Origin: Nitrospirota bacterium
GTDB lineage: Bacteria; Nitrospirota; Thermodesulfovibrionia; Thermodesulfovibrionales; UBA1546
Length of the DNA: 64,000 nucleotides
Reading direction: 5' to 3'
Assembly: GCA_009773185.1 (NCBI GenBank)
Contig: WPIF01000009.1
Location: forward strand, 5,001-69,000
A program made the position numbers and the translations under genes. Numbering within the stretch: position 1 is the first letter of the stretch; each line of letters starts with the position of its first letter. Below the pieces are notes generated by a model. That model ran no database searches. It saw only the letters and a list, made by a program, of their open reading frames with translations, and was not told where the DNA came from. Of the stretch, positions 21,431 to 46,027 are shown one piece after another.

Positions 21431-21613
21431 ATGCAGGGGGAAGAAATGATAGAATTTAAAATGATGGGTAAAGCAATGACCTGGGGTGAATTCAAAAAAG
21501 CGGTAGAAGGCGCCGGAGTAATAGATTCTTATTTAATTGACTATATCGATTTTAACTGGGAAGTTGATAAAATACTCGTAGACCACAAAAAGAAAAATTT
21601 CAGCATCACTTAA
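21431..21613 (+). CDS. Small hypothetical phage protein
   Basis: 60 residues after a clear AAGGAGG; acidic, no motif. Its stop overlaps the stop of the minus-strand gpG-like gene, so this is the convergent junction of the inverted packaging block. Confidence 0.45.
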   Translation: MQGEEMIEFKMMGKAMTWGEFKKAVEGAGVIDSYLIDYIDFNWEVDKILVDHKKKNFSIT

Positions 21614-22152: not shown

Positions 22153-22224
22153 CCCTCCTAAAATAGGCGGGGATATTTTTTTTAAAAGCTCCCCTCCTTG
22201 ATAAGGAGGGGTAGGGGTGGTTGA
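22131..22224. repeat. Composite C-rich palindromic repeat
   Basis: Part one reads CACCCCGGCCTTCGGCCACC and CCTCCTAAAATAGGCGGGG; part two is CTCCCCTCCTTGATAAGGAGGGG. It covers the intergenic gap and the start of the gpG-like gene and carries AGGAGGGG before that start. Confidence 0.75.
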
Positions 22225-22232
22225 TTAATGGA

Positions 22233-23009
22233 TTACAATTTTCTGATATCAGAATCATACCCTTTCATATCAGGCGTCCAGGCTGCCTTGCCGGGATTAT
22301 AATCCCATCCAACGTCAGGAGATATCTTATACCCGGTGAAAGGATCCGTATATCTTGCCACTTCCACAAGCTCGCCTGTTTTTTTCGATACAAGCATTTC
22401 AACTTTGTCCATCCTGCCCTCGGATGATTCGATATCCAGCCCGTACTCTTTGATGTCCTGCCTGCTCACGGCGCGCACGCGGCACCTGCAGCGGAAGCCG
22501 TTTGGCGGATAAAAGGAATTCCAGAACGGATCGTCATACCTGAAGACCTTTCCGTTCAATGCAGCATGCGCCGGCCGCGTTTTGGAATCCCTTAGAGCAA
22601 CGTACATCCAGTAAGGCCGGTTATCTACGTTGGCGATATCGAATTTATACCTGCCGACATTAAGCGCAGTCTGCATATTGACCTCGTAGATTGTCTTCAT
22701 GCGCCATGGCTCTGCAAGCTTCATGGTCTCCATGTCCACGCCTGAGGGCCCCCAGCCTTTTCTCGCGAGTGTAGGCAGCAGGTCTTTTTTGAATTGTTGT
22801 AAAGTTGTGCCTTCCTTCAGGGCTTTCTGAATTGAATTTCTGATGTCCTCGAGGATATCCATCCGGGTGACCTTAGCGACTGTGAAGGCTTTGGCGTGAG
22901 CTTCCTGCCAGATGTCATACCAGTCCCATGAAATAGCAAAGCCCTTGCTTTTGAAATATTCTATTGCCTTCTCAGGAGGAAGGCCGAAGATATATTTGAG
23001 ATCAATCAT
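22233..23009 (-). CDS. Mu F-like minor head protein (gp30)
   Basis: 258 residues. The Mu F/SPP1 gp7 family signature is clear: TIYEVNMQTALNVGRY, LRDSKTRPAHAALNGKVF and FYPPNGFRCRCRVRAV. This protein sits at the portal and assists head assembly. The ATG (23007-23009) lies in the first bases of a CATAGGTCATA-type repeat. Confidence 0.9.
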   Translation of the reverse strand: MIDLKYIFGLPPEKAIEYFKSKGFAISWDWYDIWQEAHAKAFTVAKVTRMDILEDIRNSIQKALKEGTTLQQFKKDLLPTLARKGWGPSGVDMETMKLAEPWRMKTIYEVNMQTALNVGRYKFDIANVDNRPYWMYVALRDSKTRPAHAALNGKVFRYDDPFWNSFYPPNGFRCRCRVRAVSRQDIKEYGLDIESSEGRMDKVEMLVSKKTGELVEVARYTDPFTGYKISPDVGWDYNPGKAAWTPDMKGYDSDIRKL

Positions 23010-23036
23010 AGGTCATACAGGTCGTATAAGACCTAT
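23007..23036. repeat. CATAGGTCATA-family repeat
   Basis: CATAGGTCATACAGG and TCGTATAAGACCTAT; ends are inverted (ATAGGTC / GACCTAT). Fills the gap between portal and F-like genes and includes the start codon of the latter. Confidence 0.8.
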
Positions 23037-24574
23037 TTCTCCTTCTCTGCATTTAGCCTTCCCCACAACTCACTCACAAATATCGCCCTTGCAAGCATAT
23101 CTTCCAATGCAGTTGAATCCATATCAGGGAATGTCTTTAAAAGTTCTGCCATGATGGAGTTGAAATCCTTGCCATTTTCTATGAGGTCAATGATGGGCTT
23201 CAAAATCCCGCTCATCTGTTTCTGGATTTCTTCCGGTGTGATGGAAGCCATTGCGTTATCGAGGGCCTGTTGATCAGGAAAAAGCTCCTCCATCTTTTCA
23301 GCAAATTCCGCTGCGCTTAACCCCTCCTCTGTCCTCCCCTTACCAAGGGGAGGATTAGGTGGGGGTACCACTTCAATATCCTCTTCCTCAAATCCGTAGT
23401 TTTTAGTGAAGTATTTTTTTGTGAACTTCACCTGGCCGGTTTCCGACAGGTTCTTGTCTCGCTCGGAAAGAGTCAGGTCAACGTCTTCTTCTTCCCATAG
23501 GCTAAAGACAGGGACCTCGCCGGTTCCGAAATTATATTCATATATCCATTTTATGAGCTGGTTAAAAGTGGATTCAACGAGCTTCTTATCGCCCCATACG
23601 ATTTCGTCCCTTACTTTCATATGCGTCTTAGATGCAGAGTAGCTGCCTTTGCTTCCGATCTCAGTTGTAAGAGTTTGTCCTACCAGTGCCTTCGATACCT
23701 CGCCGTCTCCGTATTTCAGAAGGCTTTCATAAAGAGCCGAAGACCCTCCGCCTCCTCCGCCCTTGTCTTTGCCTGTGAGCATTTCTATGCTGCCATCATC
23801 AGGAATAACTGCCACAGCGTCCTGCACCATATTTTTCAATGTCTCCGCAAAATCGTCATAGTCTTTCTGCTCAAGTCCCCGAGGAAGTTTTCCCATAAGG
23901 AAGGGCATCCCGTATTTTTCGGTGAAGATGACCCAAAACTTATAACCGCCCCTCTTGAACGTCACCGGCCAGAAGCACCGGGAGAGCAGAGGGAAGCCGT
24001 AAGGGTTTTCATATTCCCACTCATATGTAGGGAATAAAAACTTTCTCTCAGGCAGCTCTTCTCCGAGCGTCATGTTTGTTTTTGTGAGGAACCTCGGCTT
24101 ATTATCTTCGTCATATACAAACCATCTCTGAGGCTTGCCGACTATATCTCTTGGAAGCCACCAGTTGGTCCGTTTCCACATTACCTCCAATGGCTGATTC
24201 CCAAAAAGCGGGGCATTGAGTATCTCGCCGGTTATCCTCTCGATATCGAGGTCTTTGAATACATCTTCTATTATTTTTGCCTGCCTCGACTTTGCCTTTC
24301 CCCTGTCAATTGACCAGTTCAGGGACTTGACCCCTGCCTTCCGGTTGATTTCACATGCTCCAACATGGGCATCCGAGAGCAGCTCTTTGTAGACCTGAAT
24401 GTCTTTTCCCATTTTTTTAAGCACAGGGTCGGGGTTCGGAAGGTACATTCCGAGGTTGTAAAAATCAATAGACCGCCCCCTCGAGGCAATCTCCTGGCTT
24501 AAAGGGACTGTCGTATTTTTATCAAACTCCACAAATGTATGTTCATTGACCCATAAACCTCTTTTATTTGACAT
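23033..24574 (-). CDS. Portal protein (Mu gp29-like, DUF935)
   Basis: 513 residues. DUF935 features: GACEINRKAGVKSLNW, RITGEILNAPLFGNQPLEVMW, YGMPFLMGKLPRG and STFNQLIKWIYEYNFG. Forms the dodecameric DNA channel. Residues PPPNPPLGKGRTEEGL near 400 are read from a C-rich palindromic repeat. AAAGGAGGTTTTTTG precedes the ATG. Confidence 0.93.
   Translation of the reverse strand: MSNKRGLWVNEHTFVEFDKNTTVPLSQEIASRGRSIDFYNLGMYLPNPDPVLKKMGKDIQVYKELLSDAHVGACEINRKAGVKSLNWSIDRGKAKSRQAKIIEDVFKDLDIERITGEILNAPLFGNQPLEVMWKRTNWWLPRDIVGKPQRWFVYDEDNKPRFLTKTNMTLGEELPERKFLFPTYEWEYENPYGFPLLSRCFWPVTFKRGGYKFWVIFTEKYGMPFLMGKLPRGLEQKDYDDFAETLKNMVQDAVAVIPDDGSIEMLTGKDKGGGGGGSSALYESLLKYGDGEVSKALVGQTLTTEIGSKGSYSASKTHMKVRDEIVWGDKKLVESTFNQLIKWIYEYNFGTGEVPVFSLWEEEDVDLTLSERDKNLSETGQVKFTKKYFTKNYGFEEEDIEVVPPPNPPLGKGRTEEGLSAAEFAEKMEELFPDQQALDNAMASITPEEIQKQMSGILKPIIDLIENGKDFNSIMAELLKTFPDMDSTALEDMLARAIFVSELWGRLNAEKEK
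23319..23370. repeat. C-rich palindromic repeat inside the portal gene
   Basis: CTCCCCTTACCAAGGGGAGG hairpin with flanking CCCCTCCT and AGGTGGGGG. Read in frame as the proline/glycine segment of the portal protein. Confidence 0.8.
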
Positions 24575-24596
24575 CAAAAAACCTCCTTTTTCTGAA

Positions 24597-24627
24597 CATA
24601 GGCCATATAAGTCACATGCGACCTATG
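24597..24627. repeat. CATAGGTCATA-family repeat
   Basis: CATAGGCCATATAAGTCACA then TGCGACCTATG, with complementary ends. Lies upstream of the portal gene in the 184-bp gap between the terminase and portal genes; the rest of that gap shows nothing else except the repeat at 24700. Confidence 0.8.
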
Positions 24628-24699
24628 CATTTTGCTGCACTACCTTCAAAATTTTAGCCCTGACCCTTTTAAACTCTTTAAATTTCAGCCCAACTTCAA

Positions 24700-24729
24700 C
24701 ATAGGTCATATACGCCGCATAAGACCTAT
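24700..24729. repeat. CATAGGTCATA-family repeat
   Basis: CATAGGTCATATACG and CCGCATAAGACCTAT, just downstream of the terminase gene. Confidence 0.8.
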
Positions 24730-24758
24730 AATCGCTTAGAAGCGATTTAAAAGCCTCG

Positions 24759-26402
24759 CTAATAACCCTTAGTAATCTCACTTGCCTCCCTCTTCCTGCC
24801 ATGTGCCACCTTTATCGGGCCTGATGCTGCCTTTGACCTCGCCTGTATGGCCAATGCCTTGGCCCAGAAATGGTCTGCGTGGCCGGTTGCATCCGTGCGC
24901 TCGGCATCAAATCTCTGGTGCCCGGTCTCTGTCGAAGTCTTTTTAACGCTGTGCAGGCTCTGCCTTATGGTCATGTCAGCAGGGATGCGGTCTTTCTGGT
25001 CCTCGAAGCTTTTCTTAATGCCGTGGGCGAGAGATTCCTTGTTCGCGTTCGAGAAGTCTATACCTTCGACTCTACTCCCAAAGACCTCTATTGCCTTTTC
25101 CGCCATCTCCTCGCCAATGCCTGTCTTGTCAATACAGGCCCTTCTGAACCTCTGGAGTTTCATTAACGAGAAGAAGACGATCCTCTGAACACCGAAGGGT
25201 TGTTTTTTAAGCTCGATAACAGCGCGTGTCCAGTAGATGGAATACACTTCCTCATCAAGCCAGATGATAGATAAGTCTCTCCTCCGCGCAACGTCAAAGC
25301 CGAGATACAGATCTCCGATAAAAGGCACTTCCTCGCGGAGCCATGTCGAATCATAGGCAGGCGGTGTTTCGAGATGCTTATATTTTTTATGATGATCTAC
25401 CGCCTCATTGATAAGCCTTTCCACCCATGACGGGTCTTTGATGATCCTCTGCTCCTCGACTGTTTCGATAAGGTCATAGGGCAGCCATGCCGTTGTCTCA
25501 TCGAGAAACTCGACTAATGCCTCCTGATGCCATGCCTCGTCATCATTGATCATCAGGCGCAATTCCTCCGCATCCGAAGGGTTGCCCTCTTCATCAAGCA
25601 ACTCCAGCCCCATGTCTATAGCCTGATGGATCGTCACACTATGCTTCGACCAGCCGCCTTTTTCTCCGACATACTTGTAATCGGGCCCGTCGAACTCCTG
25701 AAGAACCTTGGCTGTCCACTGCTCGTAGAATTTGTTCTTCTTTCCCTGAGGCGTCGATATAATGCGGATTTTTTTCCCGCGCGTTACAGTAAAAGATAGC
25801 GCCTTCCATATCTCACGCGAGTCCTTATGGAATGCGAACTCATCGAGAAGGATGTGCGCGCTATGGCCTCTGGCCGTATTAGGATTCGCGGGCAGCCCGA
25901 TAATGCGAGAGCCGTTCGGGAATATTATCTCAAGCTGTTTATATTCTGTTTTGTCTTCGGCCTTAAATGTGTCGGTGAGCTCCTGGATAGCAAGATTAAT
26001 GGCCCGCGCATGGATTGCGGCCGTGCGCATCAGCTCTTTTGATTGCCTCTCTCCCGCTGAGAGGAATACCCATGTTGTTCCTGGATGCTCAAAACAATCC
26101 TTTACCGCCTCGAGAGACGTTGCAAAGGACTTACCAGCCTGGCGTGACCACTTGCCGATCTTAAAACGGGATTTATCTTCTACCCATCGCTTTTGATACT
26201 CCGTGAGCTTGACTATGGGGTCAATTGTGGATTGAGACGTTATTACCGCGGCTGGTTGTTTTTTGCCTGTCTTGATTATTCCCTTTGCCTTTCCCAGAGT
26301 CGGTGTTGCAAGCGCAGGCAGTGGCCCAACAATGAGCAGCAGCCCCAATGCCAGGAGCAAAGAAAAAAGAAAAGTTTTTGTGCGGTTAAGCTTTAAGGCC
26401 AT
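24759..26402 (-). CDS. Terminase large subunit (Mu gp28-like) with a signal-peptide-like N-terminus
   Basis: 547 residues from MALKLNRTKTFLF. ATPase motifs: Walker A-like SRQAGKS near 86-92 and Walker B ILLDEFAF at 184-191. The nuclease domain begins at DLYLGFDVARRRDLSIIWLD. It packages phage DNA into heads. Unusually, residues 1-32 form a textbook signal peptide (basic start, hydrophobic core FLFSLLLALGLLLIVG, then PLPALA). No ATG exists between this segment and the conserved domain. The frame is open to 26519 but overlaps the terminase small subunit gene. Confidence 0.9.
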   Translation of the reverse strand: MALKLNRTKTFLFSLLLALGLLLIVGPLPALATPTLGKAKGIIKTGKKQPAAVITSQSTIDPIVKLTEYQKRWVEDKSRFKIGKWSRQAGKSFATSLEAVKDCFEHPGTTWVFLSAGERQSKELMRTAAIHARAINLAIQELTDTFKAEDKTEYKQLEIIFPNGSRIIGLPANPNTARGHSAHILLDEFAFHKDSREIWKALSFTVTRGKKIRIISTPQGKKNKFYEQWTAKVLQEFDGPDYKYVGEKGGWSKHSVTIHQAIDMGLELLDEEGNPSDAEELRLMINDDEAWHQEALVEFLDETTAWLPYDLIETVEEQRIIKDPSWVERLINEAVDHHKKYKHLETPPAYDSTWLREEVPFIGDLYLGFDVARRRDLSIIWLDEEVYSIYWTRAVIELKKQPFGVQRIVFFSLMKLQRFRRACIDKTGIGEEMAEKAIEVFGSRVEGIDFSNANKESLAHGIKKSFEDQKDRIPADMTIRQSLHSVKKTSTETGHQRFDAERTDATGHADHFWAKALAIQARSKAASGPIKVAHGRKREASEITKGY

Positions 26403-26802
26403 ATATCGCCTGAATGGTCTCTGACACTTTTTTGAGATTCTCAGGCGAGAAATTATCCTTTCCGCCTTTCTCATCTGCGGTCCCTTCGAATGACGGCCGG
26501 ATACCGCCGTAACTTTCATATGCCTGTATGCTCCGGAGAAGAGCGAGAATATTTTTAGGGGTCGGATTTGCCGTGGCGTTTTTGAGGGTGAGATCTACAA
26601 GGTCTTTTAGTTGTGTTTTGATTTCCTTGGTCTGCTCAAGGTACTCTTTCCTTTTTGCCTCCCACTGTCCGTCAACTTTCCAGTTAAACAATGTCTTGCG
26701 GGAAACTTTTTTATCGAGCATGCCGAGGATAGCGTCAATGGAAAAGCCCTCCCTCACAAAAAGGCGTTTTGCTTCGTCGTTGTAGAGAGCGAGTTTACCC
26801 AT
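26386..26802 (-). CDS. Terminase small subunit-like protein (Mu gp27 position)
   Basis: 138 residues. An N-terminal HTH (AKRLFVREGFSIDAILGMLDKKVSRKTLFNWK) for DNA recognition is followed by a helical C-terminus. This is the pattern of DUF1804/DUF3486-type terminase partners. It overlaps the large subunit start and the upstream gp26-like gene. Confidence 0.8.
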   Translation of the reverse strand: MGKLALYNDEAKRLFVREGFSIDAILGMLDKKVSRKTLFNWKVDGQWEAKRKEYLEQTKEIKTQLKDLVDLTLKNATANPTPKNILALLRSIQAYESYGGIRPSFEGTADEKGGKDNFSPENLKKVSETIQAIYGLKA

Positions 26803-27049
26803 TTAATTCTCGCTCCATCCTGGCAATCTCGGCCTTCAGCGCGAGCTTCTCTTCGTTGAGAGAAACAAAATCTTCGAGCGTGATCTGCGCCCTGCAGAGG
26901 TCAAGGTCGTTTGAATCTTCTGTCGCCGGATCAATGATGTCTCTGAGGATGATAATATAATTTTCAGCCCGGAGATTGAGCGTAGCGAGCCGTTTCTTTT
27001 TTTCGTCAAGTCGGGCCTTGTGCAGAATTACATCTTTGCCTATGCTCAT
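26795..27049 (-). CDS. Mu gp26-like small protein
   Basis: 84 residues, fully helical with heptad character (KARLDEKKKRLATLNLRAENY, EEKLALKAEIARMEREL). In Mu the equivalent position is gp26. It overlaps both neighbours. Function not known. Confidence 0.6.
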   Translation of the reverse strand: MSIGKDVILHKARLDEKKKRLATLNLRAENYIIILRDIIDPATEDSNDLDLCRAQITLEDFVSLNEEKLALKAEIARMERELNG

Positions 27050-27381
27050 TCCACTACCTCCACTCTAACTTTTCTGCCGGGAAGTAGAAGCGGGCATTGT
27101 GCGGGGGTTTCGAGTTTTGAGCCAATGCGGTCGAGAACTCCTGTGAGTGTGGTCTTATAATCCTGTTCATCTCTTAAAATTTGGATCAACGTCTCGGAGA
27201 GCTTTGTATGTTTTTCGAACGCTTCCTTGGATGTGCTGTTCGCAAGGGCAACAGCTTCCTTTGCAGTATTAATTGAGTCCTTGTTCTGCTCGCTTAGTTT
27301 TTTGAACGTAACTAAAAAAACTATGAACATTGCGACCGCTGCCCCGCCCTGAATTGCAAGTTTAATTATTTCTAAGTCCAT
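27046..27381 (-). CDS. Membrane-anchored coiled-coil protein (Mu gp25 position)
   Basis: 111 residues: an N-terminal hydrophobic span (AIQGGAAVAMFIVFLVTFKKL), then a long charged helix. First gene of the inverted packaging block. The Mu-family equivalent is gp25 (DUF2730-like). Exact role unknown. Confidence 0.55.
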   Translation of the reverse strand: MDLEIIKLAIQGGAAVAMFIVFLVTFKKLSEQNKDSINTAKEAVALANSTSKEAFEKHTKLSETLIQILRDEQDYKTTLTGVLDRIGSKLETPAQCPLLLPGRKVRVEVVE

Positions 27382-27576
27382 ACACCCTCCGGGTTTTTAT
27401 CCCGTCCCGATATTCGGGACGGGATATTATTTTCTTCCCTCAACAATACGTTTTTTAAATTACTGCCTCTATGGAATCGCTCCATAGAGAAGGTTTGTCA
27501 GGTCTTGTAATCTCAGAACGTGAAGCATAAGTCGCATGAGACCTATAAGACTTATTTTTTTTAAAGGAGGTTTTTG
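27382..27576. promoter_or_regulatory. Divergent late control region with hairpins
   Basis: It separates the minus-strand packaging block from the plus-strand capsid-tail block, so it should hold both late promoters. It contains a 12-bp-arm inverted repeat at 27399-27425 (ATCCCGTCCCGA / TCGGGACGGGAT), a 7-bp-arm hairpin at 27469-27487 (CTATGGA / TCCATAG) and a CATAGGTCATA-type repeat at 27526-27556. A strong AAAGGAGG precedes the protease gene. Confidence 0.6.
27526..27556. repeat. CATAGGTCATA-family repeat (variant)
   Basis: CATAAGTCGCATGAGACCTA followed by TAAGACTTATT, between the two late blocks. Confidence 0.65.
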
Positions 27577-28569
27577 ATGGCAGCTAAAAAATTAGTCTCC
27601 GCGCTCCGCATCGGCACCTTCAAAGATTCAAACGGCGAGGAGCATACATTCGATGTTAAAAGGCTCGATGCAATCGCATCTGCCTATAATCCTCAGTTCA
27701 ACGAGGCCCCTGAAGTTATCGGCCATCCGAAAACAGATGATCCCGCGTGGGGATGGATCAAGTCTTTTAAAAGAGAAGGCGATATCCTCTTCTACGAATA
27801 CCGAGACCGCGTCCCTGCATTTCAGCAGATGATAGACCTCAAGATGTTTAAGCACCGCTCTATCAAGCTTGGAGCTGACGGCATCACGGTCAAGCATGTG
27901 GGCTGGCTCGGCGCAAAAGCCCCAGCAGTGAAGGGGCTGCCGGTGACATTCAAGGCTGAGGATGAAGGGGTAACTATCGAATTCTCAGAAGATGAGGGAG
28001 ACATTGGAGTAATGGAAAAAATGAAAAAGATGTTGATGGAGATGATGGATATGATCTCCGGAAAAAAGAAACAGGCTGATGGCCCGCCTGAAAAAGGCAA
28101 AATGCAAATGGAGGAAAAGGAGGAAGGTATGGGAGAAATTGACGAGCTTAAGAAAAAGCTCACAGAACATGAAGGTAAGATCGCCGAGTTCTCGGAGAGG
28201 GACAGCGCTAAAGACGCAGAGATTGCGTGCCTGAGAAAAGATCTCGCCGATAAGACCGCCGCGGAGCGGAAGCAGAGTTTTGCCGCATTCTGCGAAAGCA
28301 AGGAGATGGAGGGTAAGATACCGCCTGCAGTAAAGCCGGTAGTCATCGAGTTCATGGAAATTCTGTCAGGGACACAGGAGTTCGAGTTCTCTGAGGGAGA
28401 CGGCAAGCTGAAGGCACAGCCGGTCGAGAGATTTAAGACGCTTTTAAGTGGTCTTAAAAAGACGATCGAGTTTTCAGAGGTAGCGACAAAGGGCAGCGCA
28501 GGAATAAAGACAGAAGATTCGGTGGTTGACGGAATAGCATCCGCATCACCTAAAGAAGGAGGGAAATAA
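27577..28569 (+). CDS. Prohead protease/scaffold (Mu gpI/gp32-like)
   Basis: 330 residues from MAAKKLVSALRIG. The N-terminal domain (FDVKRLDAIASAYNPQFNEAPEVIGHPKTDDPAWGW) is the Mu I-type protease, with KHRSIKLGADG. A Met/Glu/Lys-rich coiled coil (145-225) acts as scaffold. As in Mu, one gene supplies protease and, from an internal start, scaffold. An AAAGGAGG stands before the ATG. Confidence 0.85.
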   Translation: MAAKKLVSALRIGTFKDSNGEEHTFDVKRLDAIASAYNPQFNEAPEVIGHPKTDDPAWGWIKSFKREGDILFYEYRDRVPAFQQMIDLKMFKHRSIKLGADGITVKHVGWLGAKAPAVKGLPVTFKAEDEGVTIEFSEDEGDIGVMEKMKKMLMEMMDMISGKKKQADGPPEKGKMQMEEKEEGMGEIDELKKKLTEHEGKIAEFSERDSAKDAEIACLRKDLADKTAAERKQSFAAFCESKEMEGKIPPAVKPVVIEFMEILSGTQEFEFSEGDGKLKAQPVERFKTLLSGLKKTIEFSEVATKGSAGIKTEDSVVDGIASASPKEGGK

Positions 28570-29223
28570 ATGCCTAAGAATTATGGAATGACAGAAGAAG
28601 CGTATACTCCCGACAGCCTTGTCGCGGGAGATAAGGTCATAACCAAAAACGGAACTCTGCTCACAGGCGAGAACCGCGCAAGGGGCGCATTGCTTGGAAA
28701 AATCACGCTCGGTGCAGTCTCTGAGACTCATGCAGGCAATACAGGCAATGGCGTGCTCACTCCTGACGCGGCCACCCCAATTCTCGCAAACGCGCAGGCC
28801 GGAGTATATAAAGCTGCCTGCATCGCAGCCGCTGTAAACGGCGGGACATTCAGGGTATCAGACCCTAAGGGTAATGTTCTCGGCGATGTTGCGGTGGGAG
28901 TGGCCTTTGCAAACCAGATAAAGTTCGTAATTGCTGACGGCGCGGCTGACTTTATTGTTGGCGACACGTTTCTGATCACCGTTGCGCCAGGGTCGCTGAA
29001 ATACAAGCTCTCTGCAGCCGCGGCAGTTGACGGCTCCCAGGTCCCGGACTCAATTCTCGTTGAGGCCACAGATGCGACCGCAGCGGACATAGACGTAGGT
29101 CTTTATGTCGGCGGCGAGTTCAATGAGAACGCAATCACCTTCGGCGCAGGGCACACAGCAGACAGCGTGAGGGACGCCCTCAGAGATAAGGGCATAATTC
29201 TAAAGAAGGGAGTCCCGGCGTAA
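28570..29223 (+). CDS. Head decoration protein
   Basis: 217 residues, starting in AGGAGGGAAATAA-ATG context. N-terminal GDKVITKNGTLLTGENRARGALLGKITLG and C-terminal YVGGEFNENAITFGAG match the HDPD-type phage decoration family. The middle (about 60-140) is an inserted beta domain (GGTFRVSDPKGNVLGDVAVG, then FIVGDTFLITVAPG) resembling one in the tail sheath. Confidence 0.78.
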   Translation: MPKNYGMTEEAYTPDSLVAGDKVITKNGTLLTGENRARGALLGKITLGAVSETHAGNTGNGVLTPDAATPILANAQAGVYKAACIAAAVNGGTFRVSDPKGNVLGDVAVGVAFANQIKFVIADGAADFIVGDTFLITVAPGSLKYKLSAAAAVDGSQVPDSILVEATDATAADIDVGLYVGGEFNENAITFGAGHTADSVRDALRDKGIILKKGVPA

Positions 29224-29251
29224 GCCAGGATTAAAAGGAGGTATAAAAATC

Positions 29252-30433
29252 ATGAAAAAAGGCAACTCAGTATTCGGCGCCCTATGCGTATGGATGCTTC
29301 TCCTTGTGGGCAGTATCTTTAGCATCGGGTTTTTAGGCGTCACGGCAACTCTGGCATCGGCAACTGCTCCCAAAGCACTGAAAGAGCTTGCGTGGATAAT
29401 ACCGTTCGCCGTATTCGGGAATATCTCAATGTTCGAAACCCGTACCATGCTCGCTGCTATGGAAAAGATGTTTTTTCCAAAGACGTTCCTTCTCGATCTA
29501 TTTTTCAAGGTCAAAAATACATTTACGACTGAGAACGTGGATATAGACATCATAAAAGGGAAACGAAGGCTCGCTCCCTTTGTAAGTCCGATGGTGCAGG
29601 GCAAGGTAATTGATAGGACAGGGTTTGTGACAAGGTCAATAAAGCCGCCTTATATCAAAGAGAAGATGCCGTTCTCCGGCGCAGACATATTAAAACGACA
29701 GGCAGGCGAGACAATCTATCAGGGTAATAGCGATCCTGCAACTCGCGCGCAGCAGCAGTTAGGCAAGGATCTGCTTGAACTGGACGGCATGATCACGAGG
29801 CGTGAGGAATGGATGGCGGCCAAAGCACTTTTTGATGGGAAGGTGCAGTGCAAAGGCGACGGTATAGATGTGCAGGTTGATTTTTTGAGAGACGCAAGCC
29901 TCACAATCACCCTGGGCGCGCTTTTCTGGGGGGCTGCGGACGGAGTGCCCATTACAAATCTGAGGACATGGAAGCAGCTTGTAGGTAAGCTCTCAGGTGT
30001 TGTTCCCGATTCGCTTATACTGGCCGGCGATGTTGTAATGCCGTTCCTCGCAAACGCCGAGGTACAGAAATTTATGGATAAGACGAAGATCACCCTGGGG
30101 CAGATAGATCCAAAGGCCCTTCCGTCCGGCGCAACTTATTACGGTAACGTTGACGGACTGGACATTTACTCTTATGACGAATGGTATCTCGATGATGCCG
30201 GTGTGCTTCAGCCGATGGTGCCTGCAAAGAAGATACTCATTGGTTCCACAAAAGCAAGATGTGAGTGTTTATACGGCGCAATACAGGACTTGAAGGCCAC
30301 GGCTGCTGTTGCCCGCTTCCCGAAATCATGGGAAGAGGAAGACCCTTCAGTCAGGTGGATAATGCTCCAGTCCGCCCCAATACCTGCAACGCTGGATACC
30401 GATGCGTTTTTAACCGCAACGGTTCTGCAGTAG
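29252..30433 (+). CDS. Major capsid protein (E-type) with hydrophobic N-terminal extension
   Basis: 393 residues. From residue 60 the E-type capsid pattern is clear: MLAAMEKMFFPKTFLLDLFF, TTENVDIDIIKGKRRLAPFV and KQAGETIYQGN-like LKRQAGETIY. Residues 1-59 are not typical: a basic start (MKKGN), a long hydrophobic segment ending ATLASA, then a second hydrophobic patch (AWIIPFAVFG). AAAAGGAGG lies before the first ATG. The ATG at residue 60 has only a weak CGGGAA upstream. Initiation at 29252 is therefore likely. Confidence 0.88.
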   Translation: MKKGNSVFGALCVWMLLLVGSIFSIGFLGVTATLASATAPKALKELAWIIPFAVFGNISMFETRTMLAAMEKMFFPKTFLLDLFFKVKNTFTTENVDIDIIKGKRRLAPFVSPMVQGKVIDRTGFVTRSIKPPYIKEKMPFSGADILKRQAGETIYQGNSDPATRAQQQLGKDLLELDGMITRREEWMAAKALFDGKVQCKGDGIDVQVDFLRDASLTITLGALFWGAADGVPITNLRTWKQLVGKLSGVVPDSLILAGDVVMPFLANAEVQKFMDKTKITLGQIDPKALPSGATYYGNVDGLDIYSYDEWYLDDAGVLQPMVPAKKILIGSTKARCECLYGAIQDLKATAAVARFPKSWEEEDPSVRWIMLQSAPIPATLDTDAFLTATVLQ

Positions 30434-30444
30434 AAGGAGGATGA

Positions 30445-30765
30445 ATGAGACTTAAGGCTATTCATAGGATCGAAGGTAAGGAAGTTGTAGAGCCGGGCGC
30501 GGAGTTCGACTCAACGGATGAGGCCGGGAAGAGATTGATATCTCTCGGTGCGGCCATGGAGATTAAGACCCCTAAGGACGAATCCAAAACCTCGGGCGCC
30601 GGAGCATCCACTCAAAAACTTTCGGCTGAGGAAGCCATTGCCAAAATCAATGAGTGTAAGACCATTGAAGAGGTGAAGGTATTCTTCAAGGGTGAAGAGC
30701 GGGTGACCGTGGTTGAGGCAGCCAGGGCAAAGATTAAGATGCTCAAGGATGCGGAGAAAAAATAA
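30445..30765 (+). CDS. Small head protein (Mu gp35 position)
   Basis: 106 residues. MRLKAIHRIEGKEVVEPGAEFD followed by EAGKRLISLGAA is a pattern of small proteins that lie after the capsid gene in Mu-like phages. The C-terminal half is a SAP-like helical motif (SAEEAIAKINECKTIEEVKVF). Role unknown. Confidence 0.6.
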   Translation: MRLKAIHRIEGKEVVEPGAEFDSTDEAGKRLISLGAAMEIKTPKDESKTSGAGASTQKLSAEEAIAKINECKTIEEVKVFFKGEERVTVVEAARAKIKMLKDAEKK

Positions 30766-31202
30766 TGCCCTACTGTGCGCTTGCAGATATTATTGACCAG
30801 GTGCCGGAGCAGAAGGTCATCGAGCTTACGGACGATGAGAATACCGGTCAGGTCAATACATCGCGCGTGGATAAGGCCATCGCAACAGCAGGCAGTATCA
30901 TTGACGGATATCTGAGGGGAAGGTATACCCTTCCCCTCTCAACCGTGCCTGAGCTTATTAAAACAATCTCCATTGACATCTCGGTCTTCAAGCTCTACGA
31001 GCGCAGGCGCGAGATGGATATGCCTGAGTCCCTGACTAATCGTTATAAGAACGCTGTGAAGCTTTTAGAGCAGATACAGAAGGGGCTTATCTCCCTCGGC
31101 ATAGAGGCCGAGGCGTCTGCAGCAGGATCAGCCGGGAGTTATAAGACAAACAAGACGGCGGACGACAGGGAATTTACGAAAGAGAAGTTGAAGACGTTTT
31201 AG
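30765..31202 (+). CDS. Head-tail joining protein (Mu gp36-like, DUF1320)
   Basis: 145 residues with the DUF1320 pattern: MPYCALADIIDQVPEQKVIELTDD, VDKAIATAGSIIDGYLRGRYTLPL and SIDISVFKLYERR. The start overlaps the previous stop by one base. Confidence 0.85.
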   Translation: MPYCALADIIDQVPEQKVIELTDDENTGQVNTSRVDKAIATAGSIIDGYLRGRYTLPLSTVPELIKTISIDISVFKLYERRREMDMPESLTNRYKNAVKLLEQIQKGLISLGIEAEASAAGSAGSYKTNKTADDREFTKEKLKTF

Positions 31203-31211
31203 GAGGGTTTT

Positions 31212-31478
31212 ATGACAGGACTAAAAAAATACATTATACGGTTTGGTGGGCTGAGCGTTGTATCTATGATTCTATTGACGGTGCTCGCGGGGCTCCTGAG
31301 CGATAAGGTCAGAATGGTGCTGTTAGGATTCGGCATCGCAGAGTTAATCTGGGCGCTCTGGTTTAAACCTATATTCGGAAAAGTGGAGGCTTTAGAGGAT
31401 GCAAAACTTATTGCGGTGCTCCTTTTCAGGGGCATTCTTATTGCTGCTATCATTCTCGGTCTTACAATCGGAATGTAG
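31212..31478 (+). CDS. Putative holin (three-TM membrane protein)
   Basis: 88 residues with three hydrophobic spans (GLSVVSMILLTVLAGLL, MVLLGFGIAELIWALWF, LLFRGILIAAIILGLTIGM). It overlaps the transglycosylase gene by 80 bases and lies directly before it, the usual holin position. The assignment rests on topology and context. Confidence 0.58.
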   Translation: MTGLKKYIIRFGGLSVVSMILLTVLAGLLSDKVRMVLLGFGIAELIWALWFKPIFGKVEALEDAKLIAVLLFRGILIAAIILGLTIGM

Positions 31479-32010
31479 CGCGGCAGACAGATGCCTGAAG
31501 TTCTACCGGCAGGTATATAAAGAGTCCCGGTATTTTATCGGCGCGGACGCGCCTGCTCATTACTTCATGGGGCAGGTAGATCAGGAGTCGCGCTGTAGGG
31601 AAGGGATCACTGCCTTTGATGGCGGGATGGGCCTTGGACAATTTATGCCGGATACCGCCGCATGGATGCAGGCGAGGGAGGCTGCACTTAAGGAATTCGG
31701 CATTGACCCTCAGCCTTATAATCCCAGGTGGGCGATAAGGGCCTTGATCCTCTATGACCGCTATCTCTACAAGGAAGCTCCCTGTGAAGGATGGTATTTT
31801 GCATTTCGTGCATATAACGGCGGGATGGGGAATTTGAGCAAAGAGATAAGGCTTGCAAACTCATGCATCGAAAAAGATATCGAGAGGAGATGTAAAAGGC
31901 GTGTGCTCAGACTTAAAAGCGGCGCATTATTGGATATGTGCAAAGTCAATATTGAGTATCCGTATCTGATATTTCAAAAAGCGGAGAAATACAAGAGGGG
32001 AATGAACTGA
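31399..32010 (+). CDS. Exported lytic transglycosylase (endolysin)
   Basis: 203 residues: a signal sequence (FSGAFLLLLSFSVLQSECSA), then an SLT-type fold with catalytic Glu in GQVDQESRCREGITAFDGGMGLGQFMPDTA, and YFAFRAYNGGMGN. It cleaves peptidoglycan at lysis. The export signal means it may not need a holin for passage. It overlaps the holin candidate. Confidence 0.85.
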   Translation: MQNLLRCSFSGAFLLLLSFSVLQSECSAADRCLKFYRQVYKESRYFIGADAPAHYFMGQVDQESRCREGITAFDGGMGLGQFMPDTAAWMQAREAALKEFGIDPQPYNPRWAIRALILYDRYLYKEAPCEGWYFAFRAYNGGMGNLSKEIRLANSCIEKDIERRCKRRVLRLKSGALLDMCKVNIEYPYLIFQKAEKYKRGMN

Positions 32011-32015
32011 CCGCG

Positions 32016-32177
32016 ATGGAACGAATCAATATAGATAAATTCTACAGGTGGGCAGCCGAGGGATTAAAGAACCCTAAGGTATGCCACGTTGATGGAGAGA
32101 GTTGTAAGGCGAGATATGCGCTAACAAAATGCAAAGAATGTTTTTTAAAGGCGACCTCTAAGGGGGCAGCGAAATGA
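32016..32177 (+). CDS. 53-residue Cys-containing protein
   Basis: Reads MERINIDKFYRWAAEGLKNP then CHVDGESC and CKEC, so four Cys able to bind a metal. It lies inside the lysis cassette and overlaps the spanin gene by ATGA. Unknown role. Confidence 0.5.
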   Translation: MERINIDKFYRWAAEGLKNPKVCHVDGESCKARYALTKCKECFLKATSKGAAK

Positions 32178-32596
32178 TACCCTGGGCAGAGATAGCAAAG
32201 CTTTTGTGGAAGAACAAAACATCTATAGGTCTTATATGCCTTATAGGACTTATTTGGTACCAACATAACCAGATTGAGACCCTCAAGCTCTCAGTTGAAA
32301 AAGAGCATGAAAAAGTCCTGACTGAAAGAGTAGAGAATAAAAAAATAAAAGCCTCGATACAAGTCCAGAATGACGCCATCGAGCAGTGGCAAAAAGAAGG
32401 CGAGAAACAAAAAGAGAGAGTTAAAGAGACAAACAGGCGGATTGGTGAGCTATCCGCTGCTTACCAGAAAGAGATAGACGCTCTGAAAAACAGCAGCGTC
32501 ATAGTGCAGGAAATAACCCTGCCATGTAACGCGATAAGAAAGGATGGCAGTCAGTGGATGCAGGAAGAATGGCAAAAGCTATTTTTGCAGCAATAG
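32174..32596 (+). CDS. Inner-membrane spanin (Rz-like)
   Basis: 140 residues: an N-terminal membrane anchor (GLICLIGLIWYQ) and a long periplasmic coiled coil (about 35-115). Its 3' end overlaps the small lipoprotein gene in another frame, the classic Rz/Rz1 layout. The two proteins join inner and outer membrane to complete lysis. The anchor is encoded by a CATAGGTCATA-type repeat. Confidence 0.78.
   Translation: MIPWAEIAKLLWKNKTSIGLICLIGLIWYQHNQIETLKLSVEKEHEKVLTERVENKKIKASIQVQNDAIEQWQKEGEKQKERVKETNRRIGELSAAYQKEIDALKNSSVIVQEITLPCNAIRKDGSQWMQEEWQKLFLQQ
32224..32253. repeat. CATAGGTCATA-family repeat within the spanin gene
   Basis: TATAGGTCTTATATGCCTTA and TAGGACTTAT; read in frame as GLICLIGLI, the membrane anchor. 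Confidence 0.7.
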
Positions 32597-32877
32597 GTCT
32601 TATAGGATTTATGGGACTTATGGCCTGCACTCCTGAGGTGCGGCATGAGCCAGTCGAGGTAAAAGTGCCTGTGGCTGTGCAATGTCCGGAGCCGCCTGTA
32701 ATCGAAAGGCCCGTGCTGCCGGTTGAGTATGTGCATTACCTCTCCCCTGCGGATGAAAAGGGAATCGGCTGCATGGACGAGAGTAGCTTTAAAAATTTAA
32801 TGGAGATGATCATGAGGCAAAACCTCTATATCAAAAAATTAGAAGAAAGCCTGAAGGCGTATATGAGGGGCAACTGA
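32569..32877 (+). CDS. Outer-membrane spanin lipoprotein (Rz1-like)
   Basis: 102 residues from MAKAIFAAIG. Lipobox GLMAC followed by a Pro/Val-rich stretch (EPVEVKVPVAVQCPEPPVIERPVLP), typical of Rz1-type o-spanins. It is nested in the end of the Rz-like gene. The hydrophobic signal (IGLIGFMGLMA) is encoded by another CATAGGTCATA-type repeat. Confidence 0.75.
   Translation: MAKAIFAAIGLIGFMGLMACTPEVRHEPVEVKVPVAVQCPEPPVIERPVLPVEYVHYLSPADEKGIGCMDESSFKNLMEMIMRQNLYIKKLEESLKAYMRGN
32592..32622. repeat. CATAGGTCATA-family repeat within the Rz1-like gene
   Basis: AATAGGTCTTATAGGATTTA then TGGGACTTATGG; supplies the lipoprotein signal's hydrophobic core. Confidence 0.65.
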
Positions 32878-32878
32878 T

Positions 32879-33244
32879 ATGTTGGAGCTGATAGATACCA
32901 CCACAGGCATGTCAATAGGCTCGCAGCAGTTTGTCAAAGGCGAGACTAAAACGATAAGCCTCCAGTTAAAGGAAAACGGCATTGCAAAAAATATTACCGG
33001 ATACACTTTTAAATTTGCCGGAAAGGCAAAACACAGCGATACAGCTTACAAGATACCAGTGATAAACGGCGCTATTACCGATGCTGCGAACGGCAAGTTT
33101 TCATTTACGATAAATGCCGCCGATGTCGCCGCAGTCTTTAGTGGAGTTTTTGAAATCGCAATGTATGATGCCTTGCTTAAAAAAACAGTGTTAACGCCGC
33201 CGCGAGGAACGCCTGTTACGGTGCACGAGGACATAATTGATTGA
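32879..33244 (+). CDS. Small beta-sandwich phage protein
   Basis: 121 residues, all-beta: KGETKTISLQLKENGIAKNITGYTFKFAGKA, then GKFSFTINAADVAAVFSGVFEIAMYDA. This is the pattern of baseplate upper-protein-like (BppU-type) immunoglobulin domains in phage tail and head proteins. Virion part or assembly role not known. Confidence 0.55.
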   Translation: MLELIDTTTGMSIGSQQFVKGETKTISLQLKENGIAKNITGYTFKFAGKAKHSDTAYKIPVINGAITDAANGKFSFTINAADVAAVFSGVFEIAMYDALLKKTVLTPPRGTPVTVHEDIID

Positions 33245-33245
33245 G

Positions 33246-33779
33246 ATGAACGAGCTAAGGATGTATTCCAACATTGAGAAGGCTGTAGAGACGAGGATAG
33301 AGTCAAAACTGGAATCCGTGCGGGATGTAAAAATCCAGAAGGGCCCAAAGAATAATCTCCTTAATCCCGGAGTCTTTGTCTCTGTGGAAGAGGGAGTGTT
33401 CGAAGCGGTAGGCCGGGGATGGAAGCAGAAGCTCGACGTCTATGTCGAGATTGAATTTGAAAACCTGCGGGATGAAGAGCAGAGGCGCGTAGGCGCATTC
33501 CTAATACTCTCTGCGATTATTCAATACCTCTGTGGCCAGAACCTTGGCCTTAATATATCTGAGTTGAAACCTTCAAAATGGCAGAACGTAACTGGAGAGG
33601 AAGATCATAAGGCCAGTAAAACGCGCTTTCAAATCGTATTTAAAACCGCATTTAACATCGAGCCGGTCAGCGATGAGGTTGTAACCGACCTGCTTAAAGT
33701 CGGTCTTGATTATTACCTTAAGCCCGGAGATGAGACTAAAGATGCATCGGATGAGGTGACGCTCGAGGGAGGCGCATAA
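33246..33779 (+). CDS. Mu gp37-like tail protein (DUF1834)
   Basis: 177 residues from MNELRMYSNIEKAV. DUF1834 pattern with GVFVSVEEGVFEAVGRGWKQKLDVYVEIEFENLRDEEQRR and TRFQIVFKTAFNIEP. In Mu-like phages it lies between gp36 and the tail sheath and is needed for tail completion. It starts next to the stop of the gene before. Confidence 0.8.
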   Translation: MNELRMYSNIEKAVETRIESKLESVRDVKIQKGPKNNLLNPGVFVSVEEGVFEAVGRGWKQKLDVYVEIEFENLRDEEQRRVGAFLILSAIIQYLCGQNLGLNISELKPSKWQNVTGEEDHKASKTRFQIVFKTAFNIEPVSDEVVTDLLKVGLDYYLKPGDETKDASDEVTLEGGA

Positions 33780-34093
33780 TGGCATGGCCTAAAGGTTTTA
33801 GCTGGACAAAAGGACACTGGGAGGAAACAACGAATCCGGACAGCACTATCTCAAAGATGTATGTCCACACCGGGCCGTTTTTCTGGCTGCCGGTTCAGAT
33901 AACAAGCAATTTCCGCATAGAGATATATGCGGGGTTCCGGCCCACTCCGACATGGGGCGTGGGCTACGGCAATGAGGGTGACGGTAAGGTATTCACAAAG
34001 ATAGGGCAGTGGATGAAAAACAAAGGCTGGGGGAATCTCGGCTTTGCATTCAGATTTAAAAAAGCCCCGATATTATCGGGGCAAGGAGGATAA
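33779..34093 (+). CDS. Small hypothetical tail-region protein
   Basis: 104 residues rich in Trp and Gly (AWPKGFSWTKGHWEE, TPTWGVGYGNEGDG). No motif recognised. The C-terminal KAPILSGQGG is read from a palindrome. Lies between gp37- and gp38-like genes. Confidence 0.5.
   Translation: MAWPKGFSWTKGHWEETTNPDSTISKMYVHTGPFFWLPVQITSNFRIEIYAGFRPTPTWGVGYGNEGDGKVFTKIGQWMKNKGWGNLGFAFRFKKAPILSGQGG
34064..34082. repeat. Palindrome GCCCCGATA-T-TATCGGGGC
   Basis: 9-bp arms around one base at the end of the preceding gene. Related to the ATCCCGTCCCGA palindrome at 27399. Confidence 0.7.
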
Positions 34094-34097
34094 AGAT

Positions 34098-34322
34098 ATG
34101 AAAGTTTTAGCAGCGAAAGGGCTTAAATGCCCGATGGAAGGGAAGCCCCGCACTTATATCCCGGACAGCGGGGAGCCGGTTGAAGTGTCGGATGGTTCGA
34201 CATATTACAGGAGATTGATTGCTGACGGGTCGCTGGTTTTAGAAGCGCAGGATAGCAGCAGCGCAATAGAGCAGAAGTCAGAGCAGAAGCCGACAGAAAA
34301 AGATAAGGGAGGTAGAAAATAA
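34098..34322 (+). CDS. Mu gp38-like protein (DUF2635)
   Basis: 74 residues from MKVLAAKGLKCPMEGKPRTYIPD, with YYRRLIADGSLVL: the DUF2635 pattern. AAGGAGG before the ATG. It immediately precedes the sheath gene, as in Mu. Confidence 0.8.
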   Translation: MKVLAAKGLKCPMEGKPRTYIPDSGEPVEVSDGSTYYRRLIADGSLVLEAQDSSSAIEQKSEQKPTEKDKGGRK

Positions 34323-36037
34323 TGGTTGACTTCAATGAAATTCCATCTAATATCAGAATTCCTGGAGTATATGCTGAATTAGATAAATCTAATGCGAGCA
34401 ACACGCTCCCTCAGGAATTACAAAGCATGCTCGTTATCGCTCAGAGACTCAAATCTATGATTTGTCCCGCCATTTTTCAGGGCGGCACTCTCAATAATAT
34501 GACGAGCGGCGGTGCATATACGGGTGCCGCCGTTAAGAACTTTAGAGTGAAGGTATCTACCGCAGCGGCCACGGATAAGTTTAAGTGGTCAACGGACGGC
34601 GGCAATACGTGGTCTGCTGAGATCAGTGTCACCGGAGCAGCCCAGGCACTAAGCGATGGTGTTACCGTTACATTTGCAGCCATAACGGGACATGCGGTCA
34701 ATGACGAATGGCGGTTCTCCGCATATCCGGAACCCTCAATAGCCCAAAAAATTGCAACGAAAGTTTACTCTGACGCAGAGGCTGCCAAATACGCTGGCTA
34801 TGGATCAAAAATACATCTTATGATCAGGGCCGCAATAAAGGCATATGAATATCTCGATCTGACAATTGTCAGTCTTGATGACGCAGCCGCCAGTGTCGCA
34901 GCTACAGGCATGATAACATTCACCGGCAATGCGGCGTCATCAGGAGTTTTGAGTTTGTATATTGCGAGCAAGCAGGTGAAAATATTGATATCAAAAGACG
35001 ACACACCTTCGGAAATGGCAACTCTTTTATGTAATGAGATATCCATGATGCCTGATCTCCCTGTTGTTGCGTCGAACCTTGCAGGCGTAGTAACGCTCAA
35101 GGCGAAAAACAAGGGCATAGTCGGAAATTCAATTGGACTTGGTTATGACATTGCGGGTGCAGCAGGAGTGGCAGTCGCAATCGTTGAAATGGCAAACGGT
35201 TTAGGCAGTCCCGACATTCAGGATGCTCTTACTATTGTAGCGGGCAAAAGATATCACATATATGTGAGTCAATTCAATGATGCGGATTCTCGCACTAAGT
35301 TGCGTGATCATTTGACATTTGTATCTAATGCTGTTGAGCAGCGGCCGGGAGTGGGTGTATTCGGGTTGAATGGTTCGCTCGCCGAGGCTACAACTCTGGC
35401 TGCCGGCGAAACTAATGAAATCCGTCTCCAATGTGCATGGCTCAGATATACATCCGAGACCAAACGGAAGTACATGCCCTGTGAAATCGCAGCGGCCAAG
35501 GCCGCAATTACGGCGTTTGCGCATTCAGTCAAGGTCGGTAACTCCGAAACGGATCTCGAAGTTAGGGGTGTTCCATTGCCTGCAATAGCCGACAGATTAA
35601 CAACGACGGAAAAACAGACTTGCCTCTATAATGGCGTTTCTTATCTGTATGTTGGCAAGGGTGAACGCCTGCTGGTCGGGAGATCTATTACAACTTACGT
35701 ATCTGATGCCAATGGCGCGCTTGATCCTGCATTCCTTGACGTTGGTGTGATGGTCACTACCGATTACTGTCGCGCAGCATGGGTTGATGATGTTAAGCGC
35801 AAATTCCAGAGGCAGAAAAAATCCGCACGCACAAAAACCCGCCTCCGCAGCGCCATCATAGCAAAAGCCTATCAGCTTCAGGAATACGAGTTAATACAAG
35901 ATGTTGATAAACATAAGAATGGGATCATCGTGTCGGACAATCTTACTGATGCGACCCGGCTCGATGTTGAAATTCCGACGGCGATAATTCCGGGGCTTGA
36001 AATTATCGGTATGAAGATAAAAATCTTAGTCTACTAA
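34322..36037 (+). CDS. Tail sheath protein (Mu gpL-like)
   Basis: 571 residues. GVPLPAIADRLTTTEKQTCLYNGVSYLYV and VMVTTDYCRAAWVDDVKRKFQRQK, plus the C-terminal VEIPTAIIPGLEIIGMKI, fit Mu-type sheath proteins of contractile tails. Residues 60-140 (KFKWSTDGGNTWSAEISVTG, then HAVNDEWRFSA) form an inserted beta-sandwich domain probably exposed on the tail surface. Confidence 0.9.
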   Translation: MVDFNEIPSNIRIPGVYAELDKSNASNTLPQELQSMLVIAQRLKSMICPAIFQGGTLNNMTSGGAYTGAAVKNFRVKVSTAAATDKFKWSTDGGNTWSAEISVTGAAQALSDGVTVTFAAITGHAVNDEWRFSAYPEPSIAQKIATKVYSDAEAAKYAGYGSKIHLMIRAAIKAYEYLDLTIVSLDDAAASVAATGMITFTGNAASSGVLSLYIASKQVKILISKDDTPSEMATLLCNEISMMPDLPVVASNLAGVVTLKAKNKGIVGNSIGLGYDIAGAAGVAVAIVEMANGLGSPDIQDALTIVAGKRYHIYVSQFNDADSRTKLRDHLTFVSNAVEQRPGVGVFGLNGSLAEATTLAAGETNEIRLQCAWLRYTSETKRKYMPCEIAAAKAAITAFAHSVKVGNSETDLEVRGVPLPAIADRLTTTEKQTCLYNGVSYLYVGKGERLLVGRSITTYVSDANGALDPAFLDVGVMVTTDYCRAAWVDDVKRKFQRQKKSARTKTRLRSAIIAKAYQLQEYELIQDVDKHKNGIIVSDNLTDATRLDVEIPTAIIPGLEIIGMKIKILVY

Positions 36038-36041
36038 AAAA

Positions 36042-36090
36042 ATACCTCCCCAGTCCCCTCCTTGCCAAGGAGGGGATTTAGGGGCGGTTA
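36042..36090. repeat. C-rich palindromic repeat between sheath and tube genes
   Basis: TCCCCTCCTTG and CAAGGAGGGGA arms around a single C, with CCTCCCCAG before and TTTAGGGGCGG after. Intergenic. Confidence 0.8.
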
Positions 36091-36102
36091 TAAGGAGGAT
36101 TT

Positions 36103-36459
36103 ATGGAATATGTCTCGAAAGCAACACTCGAAGTAAACGGGCAGCTCGTTGACGATATCAATTCCGTTACGGAAAAAAAGGTTGAAGTGAGAAAGGCCAT
36201 CAAGCTCATGAATAAGACCGGCGTGGTCAAGGGCACGCCGCAGTACGGGATGCAGGTTGAATATGTTCTTCCGAAAGACGCTCCTGAATTCGACTGGGAA
36301 GAAGTCGAAAACGGCACACTCACAGTAGACAAGGAAAACGGGGTGAGGGTTACTTTCACCGGCGTTTATACGCTCGAAGTCGGAGACGCGAAATACGACG
36401 GCGAGAAAGAAACCACAAGGAACATCGAGCTTGTAGCTATGGGGAGGGTTAAGGAATGA
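36103..36459 (+). CDS. Tail tube protein (Mu gpM-like)
   Basis: 118 residues, beta-rich: SKATLEVNGQLVDDINSVTEKKVEVRKAIKLMNKTG and a C-terminal YTLEVGDAKYDGEKETTRNIELVAMG. It has the length and position of Mu gp40. AAGGAGG before the ATG. Confidence 0.82.
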   Translation: MEYVSKATLEVNGQLVDDINSVTEKKVEVRKAIKLMNKTGVVKGTPQYGMQVEYVLPKDAPEFDWEEVENGTLTVDKENGVRVTFTGVYTLEVGDAKYDGEKETTRNIELVAMGRVKE

Positions 36460-36971
36460 GCCTTCTGGAAAAACTCAAGGCCGGGAAGAAAAACAAAAAC
36501 ACGATTAAATTTCCCGGCACTGATCAGGATATTATTATCTCTGTTTTATCCGAGGCGGACATCCAGGCCGCGCACTTCGAGTCAGAGAGGCTATTTAAGA
36601 AAAACGGGATAGAGGTCTCTATGTCAACGGTTGATGCTTACGAGGCCGAGAAAACTACACAGATACTTTTCCGGGCATGCAGCGATACTGACGGGAAGCC
36701 TCTCTCAAAAACAGTGGACGAATTCCGCTCGCAGATACTGAAGGCCGAGAAGGATATCCTTGTGGATGAGTATAACTCTCTTGAACAGGAATGCTCTCCG
36801 AATCCTGAAAAGATATCCACAGAGGACATGGAAAAAATAATTGACGAGGTAAAAAAAAGACCGGAGATGATTGGGAGCGTTTCAAATATCGTTATAGCGA
36901 GAAAGCTAATAGTCTCTTTGGCCTCCCGGCTTCAGAACTCACAACAGGGCAGTGGCTCTACATCTTCGTGA
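36456..36971 (+). CDS. Tail assembly chaperone, zero-frame product (Mu gp41-like)
   Basis: 171 residues. An N-terminal domain (FPGTDQDIIISVLSEADIQAAHFESERLF) is followed by a helical C-terminus. In contractile-tail phages this protein and its frameshift extension guide assembly of the tail tube around the tape measure. It lies immediately before the tape measure gene. See the frameshift product for the alternative end. Confidence 0.78.
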   Translation: MSLLEKLKAGKKNKNTIKFPGTDQDIIISVLSEADIQAAHFESERLFKKNGIEVSMSTVDAYEAEKTTQILFRACSDTDGKPLSKTVDEFRSQILKAEKDILVDEYNSLEQECSPNPEKISTEDMEKIIDEVKKRPEMIGSVSNIVIARKLIVSLASRLQNSQQGSGSTSS

Positions 36972-37027
36972 TGGAGATGCCCAAAGACTCAAAATCAAAG
37001 ACATACAAGGTAAGAAAGAAAAGATGA
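36456..37027 (+). CDS. Tail assembly chaperone, predicted -1 frameshift product
   Basis: A run of eight A at 36851-36858 gives the in-frame slippery heptamer A-AAA-AAA followed by G. Slipping by -1 joins the first 134 codons to an open frame of 56 codons ending at 37027. That frame encodes DDWERFKYRYSEKAN and SLFGLPASELTTGQWLYIF, the sort of sequence seen in the extension of phage tail chaperones. This matches the known Mu gp41/gp42 and P2 E/E' strategy. Confidence 0.72.
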
Positions 37028-37041
37028 ACAGCAAGATAATA

Positions 37042-37095
37042 ACGCCCCCGCCTTCGTCACCCCCTCTTAAGTTAAGAGGGGGATGGGGGAGTTAT
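37042..37095. repeat. C-rich palindromic repeat before the tape measure gene
   Basis: CCCCCTCTTAA / TTAAGAGGGGG arms with CCCCCGCC before and ATGGGGGAG after. The GGGGGAG lies 5 bases before the tape-measure ATG and is the only visible ribosome binding site. Confidence 0.8.
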
Positions 37096-41483: not shown

Positions 41484-41485
41484 AT
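41456..41485. repeat. CATAGGTCATA-family repeat
   Basis: CATAGGTCATATATGTCCTG then TAAGTCATAT, covering the start of the minus-strand secreted protein gene. Confidence 0.7.
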
Positions 41486-41509
41486 CCCTCTTCATAAGGA
41501 AATCATATC

Positions 41510-44328: not shown

Positions 44329-44342
44329 GGAGGAATAACGAT

Positions 44343-45464: not shown

Positions 45465-45487
45465 CGCGTGAGAGGAGGTAAAAATAA

Positions 45488-45880: not shown

Positions 45881-45885
45881 TTTTA

Positions 45886-45987: not shown

Positions 45988-46027
45988 ATGGGAATTATAG
46001 CAGGCAGGATAAAAAGGAGTCTATGTT

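Follow-up and report, generated by a model that had tools for sequence, protein, structure and literature searches.

A predicted membrane-targeting leader on the major capsid protein of a Mu-like prophage and on gpE- and gpT-type relatives

Introduction

Why would the major capsid protein of a tailed phage begin with a hydrophobic segment? Capsid assembly of the lambda and Mu types is generally regarded as cytoplasmic. The question is raised by a Mu-like prophage in the 64,000-nucleotide stretch of Nitrospirota DNA analysed here (the window), for which the initial annotation had proposed that heads assemble on the membrane or that the extension is a removable peptide cut by a gpI-like protease. 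The prophage combines a lambda-type gpD/gpE shell with a Mu-type portal and terminase; its terminase and portal are encoded on the minus strand (21610-27381), its protease, capsid and tail proteins on the plus strand (27574-46000).

Results

The capsid gene of the window

The major capsid protein is encoded at 29252-30433 on the plus strand, from an ATG at 29252, and has 393 amino acids. Pfam Phage_cap_E (PF03864) spans residues 63-391 (E 1.6e-71, profile positions 2-329 of 329), and residues 2-338 of lambda gpE (PDB 7vi9) align with residues 59-389; approximately the first 59 residues are therefore extra. These results uphold the 59-residue hydrophobic extension of the initial annotation, its coordinates and its placement of the known fold near residue 60. 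PF03864 is the only family matched, and PF05065, the family of the HK97 delta-domain capsids, is not. In an AlphaFold model (mean pLDDT 86, alignment of 51 rows) the HK97 fold begins at about residue 61; a helix at residues 6-34 stands separate from it, and residues 40-53 form short helices of low confidence. Foldseek searches with this model gave the capsids of Chi, YSD1 and lambda as best matches. The host genome has a single capsid gene of the gpE type, so the heads of an active prophage must be made from the leader-bearing protein.

The strong ribosome binding site claimed for the leader was also borne out: an AGGAGG lies 10 bases before the ATG, with an anti-Shine-Dalgarno (SD) duplex energy of -12.9 kcal/mol, versus -4.3 kcal/mol at the internal ATG at 29429 (residue 60). 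The leader runs from a positively charged n-region through a long hydrophobic helix and an Ala-x-Ala site to a second hydrophobic patch; the previously reported ATLASA and AWIIPFAVFG are residues 32-37 and 47-56. It is atypical in that both its hydrophobic stretch, of about 27 residues, and its loop charge of +1 are less typical than in relatives. This long stretch may remain uncut as an anchor, and on these two features a lasting anchor is as likely in the window as a cleaved peptide. Coordinates are given in Table 1; an Rfam search of 24000-33000 found no element.

Table 1. Features of the prophage head region in the window
Feature	Position	Strand	Basis or remark
Terminase large subunit (TerL)	24759..26402	-	Pfam Terminase_6N and 6C
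TerL signal-peptide-like leader, 65 codons	26208..26402	-	Weak SD at ATG; start position backed by relatives
Head maturation protease, gpI-like, candidate leader-remover	27574..28569	+	phrog_976
Head decoration protein, lambda gpD type, without leader	28570..29223	+	Pfam HDPD
SD sequence AGGAGG for the leader ATG	29236..29241	+	Sequence; anti-SD duplex -12.9 kcal/mol
Capsid membrane-targeting leader (predicted), 59 codons	29252..29428	+	Homologous layout in the leaders of 65 other capsid proteins
Long hydrophobic segment of capsid leader, residues 8-34	29273..29353	+	Hydropathy; helix 6-34 in AlphaFold model
Ala-Ser-Ala, residues 35-37, putative signal peptidase site	29354..29362	+	Sequence; motif counts among relatives
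Second hydrophobic patch of capsid leader, residues 46-56	29387..29419	+	Leader alignment; patch hydropathy
gpE-type HK97-fold capsid domain and stop codon	29432..30433	+	Pfam PF03864; PDB matches

At 31212-32010 the window encodes a SLT-type lysozyme (31399-32010) with a signal or anchor start, which overlaps the end of a small two-span holin-like protein (31212-31478) by 80 bases in another frame. Small proteins of 137-147 amino acids that begin in the manner of signal peptides and match nothing in Pfam or PHROG are encoded in three other loci (L277:16013-16456, L237:15814-16227 and L307:12316-12735), in the first two of which the gene comes after the capsid gene.

Occurrence of the leader in other capsid proteins

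Homologue comparison, suggested in the initial annotation, revealed that the extension is not peculiar to the window phage. Leaders of matching layout, hydrophobic and 36-60 residues long, were found on 66 distinct capsid proteins, 34 of the gpE type and 32 of the Mu gpT type; as 66 of about 254 this is not a natural frequency, since sampling favoured leader-bearing queries, and the sequences come from metagenomic contigs, mostly without named hosts. L162/L235, at 60% identity over the protein, have a leader of the window layout behind a strong SD. The same layout and a strong SD occur in a Desulfuromonadales MAG (L002) and in L036/L043, L080, L087, L182, L192, L209 and L230. More diverged gpE-type families (L277, L243, L290, L292; L238-L241) also carry a leader, as do gpT-type capsids (PF10124) of L242, L343, L330 and others. 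A W..LLL..AV..FP core and a ..PLL.FG patch are common to several leaders across families, and many leaders of the gpT group are alike in physical pattern only. Dozens of relatives have the layout, charge pattern, reading frame and start signal in common, and we rejected chance or a single-contig artefact. In one relative (L025:3314-3490) the SD-preceded ATG of the capsid leader is out of frame and overlaps an in-frame ATG (TGATG), reflecting either translational coupling or a frameshift in the contig.

In the majority of relatives (Pseudomonas, Bacillota) the protein begins directly at the fold. Three further gpE-type capsids from the window's own class match only from residue 58-59 on, and the capsid of gut phage MT835710 (L404) lacks a leader. 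So do those in the annotated Chi and KLER1-1 records that we inspected, where apparent extensions were tblastn alignments that continued upstream of the annotated start of the capsid into the gene for the decoration protein. In 277 genomes from the class of the L002 host, gpT-type capsids occur with a leader (L464, L466, L467, L468, L470) and without one (L462, L469), and none of the readable HK97-gp5-type capsids (PF05065) has it, several loci read on the wrong strand being excluded from that count; the leader is thus not a general trait of the phages of one host class. Within 8 kb we found no partner gene that convincingly co-varies with the leader, in clusters that include out-of-frame ORFs. 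In the open-access literature we found no account of a tailed-phage capsid protein with a signal peptide. The leader-bearing form of gpE and gpT capsids is a widespread and apparently undescribed variant.

Translation and selection

Use of a start at residue 60 alone, which the initial annotation named as counting against its own reading, would make the leader an annotation artefact. An internal ATG is indeed present there, but its SD is weak, the corresponding codon is not ATG, GTG or TTG in 46 of the 66 leader-bearing relatives, and the leader is under selection, so we give this reading almost no credence. In 15 close pairs the dN/dS of the leader was 0.06-0.60, below 1 in every pair, versus 0.01-0.16 for the capsid core; the leader thus evolves faster than the core, and the ratios indicate that it is under purifying selection. 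At the level of sequence, this selection and the lost native starts establish that the leader is translated.

Signal-peptide-like layout

Scored by a simple hydropathy and charge rule, all 66 leaders have a positive n-region (net charge +1 to +3) and a hydrophobic core. The segment after the Ala-x-Ala site is negative in 53 leaders, neutral in 9 and positive in 4 (p 6e-12, uncorrected for relatedness). An Ala-x-Ala-type site is present in 63/66, only moderately above the number expected from composition (about 52 from shuffles). Mean Kyte-Doolittle hydropathy of the second patch exceeds 1.6 in 53/66, and this patch is short for a membrane span. The predicted layout, with a signal peptide, a short loop on the outside and then a second hydrophobic segment, is that of the M13 procoat, and these features provide good support for a membrane-targeting role.

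Gain and loss of the leader

Relative to leaderless L397, L399 and L400, sisters about 85% identical in which the SD and ATG are conserved, the leader of L403 is a 135-bp indel, clean and in frame, that lies after the ATG and before the native second or third codon. L402 is also leaderless, with a less clean alignment, and clean alignments were not obtained for other families. Relatives with and without the leader were found together within single metagenomes: 3300040744 (L403, L400), 3300022666 (L394, L402) and 3300044712 (L391, L397). In the gpE-type tree (111 rows, 31 of them leader-bearing) 12 changes are required, no fewer than 10 of which fall on well-supported branches; in the gpT-type tree, built by a quick method (101 rows, 30 of them leader-bearing), 14 changes are required, with a lower bound of 9; the leader has therefore often been gained or lost. 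Alignments and trees together make the case for a cassette that is recurrently gained and lost, and the close leaderless relatives in the same samples imply that it is dispensable for making heads.

The terminase leader

TerL also has a signal-peptide-like start (MALKLNRTKTFLFSLLLALGLLLIVGPLPALATP), in agreement with the claim that both capsid and terminase begin in a membrane-like way. This leader differs from that of the capsid and, as it has no second patch, the topology of TerL is not accounted for by a hairpin. Counting the window's own, 18 distinct TerL proteins have such a start, with an Ala-x-Ala-type site in 17, and dN/dS of the leader is 0.11-0.88 where synonymous change is measurable. 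Where both genes are present at a locus, a leader-bearing capsid accompanies 9 of 10 leader-bearing TerL versus 8 of 27 leaderless TerL (Fisher p 0.002); this co-occurrence rests on only two phylogenetically independent comparisons, so the linkage is unproven and we do not count it as evidence. Two loci that combine a leader-bearing terminase with another capsid type encode, upstream of the terminase, a small membrane protein in which a signal-peptide-like start has been added to a second membrane span (L233:6852-7304, L307:6741-7187).

Discussion

For the insertion, topology, cleavage and assembly role of the capsid leader, and for the protease that would cleave it, we infer the following course. 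The translated 59-residue leader would be recognised like a signal peptide and inserted as a hairpin, with the N-terminus inside, the hydrophobic helix across the membrane, a short loop outside and the second patch turning back. The HK97-fold domain would stay cytoplasmic yet tethered at the inner membrane, where heads would nucleate. Cleavage, by the head maturation protease or, after Ala-x-Ala, by host signal peptidase, would then free the heads for DNA packaging; in the window phage the long hydrophobic stretch may keep the protein anchored until it is cut by the phage protease. The gpI-like protease proposed in the initial annotation is present nearby. Host signal peptidase is predicted to be at least as likely a cutting enzyme as the phage protease, because the n-region is positive in 66/66 leaders, the loop is negative in 53 versus positive in 4, and Ala-x-Ala occurs in 63/66. 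Membrane targeting with hairpin insertion, a cytoplasmic capsid domain, head assembly at the membrane and proteolytic release is the best explanation that we have, at an even chance of being right, and membrane head assembly fits the window phage best. It is plausible, somewhat short of an even chance, that many lambda-like and Mu-like phages target the capsid, and some the terminase, to the inner membrane by a signal-peptide cassette that is gained and lost, independently of the portal route of T4.

The leader could instead be an assembly propeptide that acts in the procapsid, either as a short hydrophobic scaffold or in place of a delta domain, and is cut by the phage head protease with no part for the membrane. 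The position of that protease two genes upstream of the capsid agrees with this, as does the distribution in one host class, where gpT-type capsids often have a leader and the readable HK97-gp5-type capsids, a type with its own N-terminal domain or protease fusion, have none. Charge asymmetry and Ala-x-Ala are, however, features of signal peptides for which a scaffold has no evident need, and sisters about 85% identical manage with no leader at all, and we regard a propeptide as unlikely. Capsid and terminase are known triggers of bacterial defence sensors, and the leader might hold both at the membrane, away from cytoplasmic sensors and interference, while heads assemble in the normal way. 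Frequent gain and loss, leader-plus and leader-minus relatives in shared samples, faster evolution than the core, and the presence of leaders on capsid and, in the window phage, terminase would all suit such evasion. Portal and protease, by the simple rule, lack such a start, and the joint occurrence of the two leaders lacks phylogenetic independence; evasion is less probable still than a propeptide. In another reading some of the capsid protein goes to the periplasm or cell surface in an envelope role, for instance phage exclusion, and a shorter product makes the heads; this would account for a signal-peptide layout with Ala-x-Ala. But there is one capsid gene, mostly with no usable internal start, so all of the capsid protein would bear the leader, and as the capsid domain folds fast its export would put an end to head formation; we consider this role very improbable.

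If membrane targeting is correct, some phages may build heads on the cell membrane in a seemingly undescribed way, and a membrane tag toggled between close relatives, at an exact site behind the start codon, would make the site of head building testable with matched natural pairs. The leader might also bear on how capsid and terminase are hidden from immune sensors. Annotations that place the capsid start at residue 60 would be in error.

Comparison with known systems

From residue 61 the window capsid resembles the lambda gpE-type capsids (PF03864; lambda, Chi, YSD1) in fold and sequence, and decoration protein D adjoins the capsid gene in both; lambda gpE starts where the window leader ends. 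A subset of Mu gpT-type major head proteins (PF10124) have a leader of the same layout, although the window capsid is not gpT. The delta domain of HK97 is an N-terminal capsid extension of about 100 residues that is hydrophilic and is removed in maturation; like the leader it precedes the HK97 fold, whereas the leader is hydrophobic and has 36-60 residues.

The M13 procoat has a signal peptide, a short acidic loop, a hydrophobic segment and a C-terminal part in the cytoplasm, an arrangement that the window capsid would share if the membrane-targeting model is right. The M13 coat, from a filamentous phage, is nevertheless small and spans the membrane once, and it has no homology to the window capsid. 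Membrane anchoring of coat proteins is described in PMC3185693. The heads of T4 and SPN3US begin on the inner membrane and detach after proteolysis, and the T4 prohead is attached via the portal gp20 and YidC (PMC9026906). T4 attaches by its portal and YidC rather than by the capsid protein; together T4 and SPN3US provide a precedent for the membrane head assembly with proteolytic release that we propose for the window phage.
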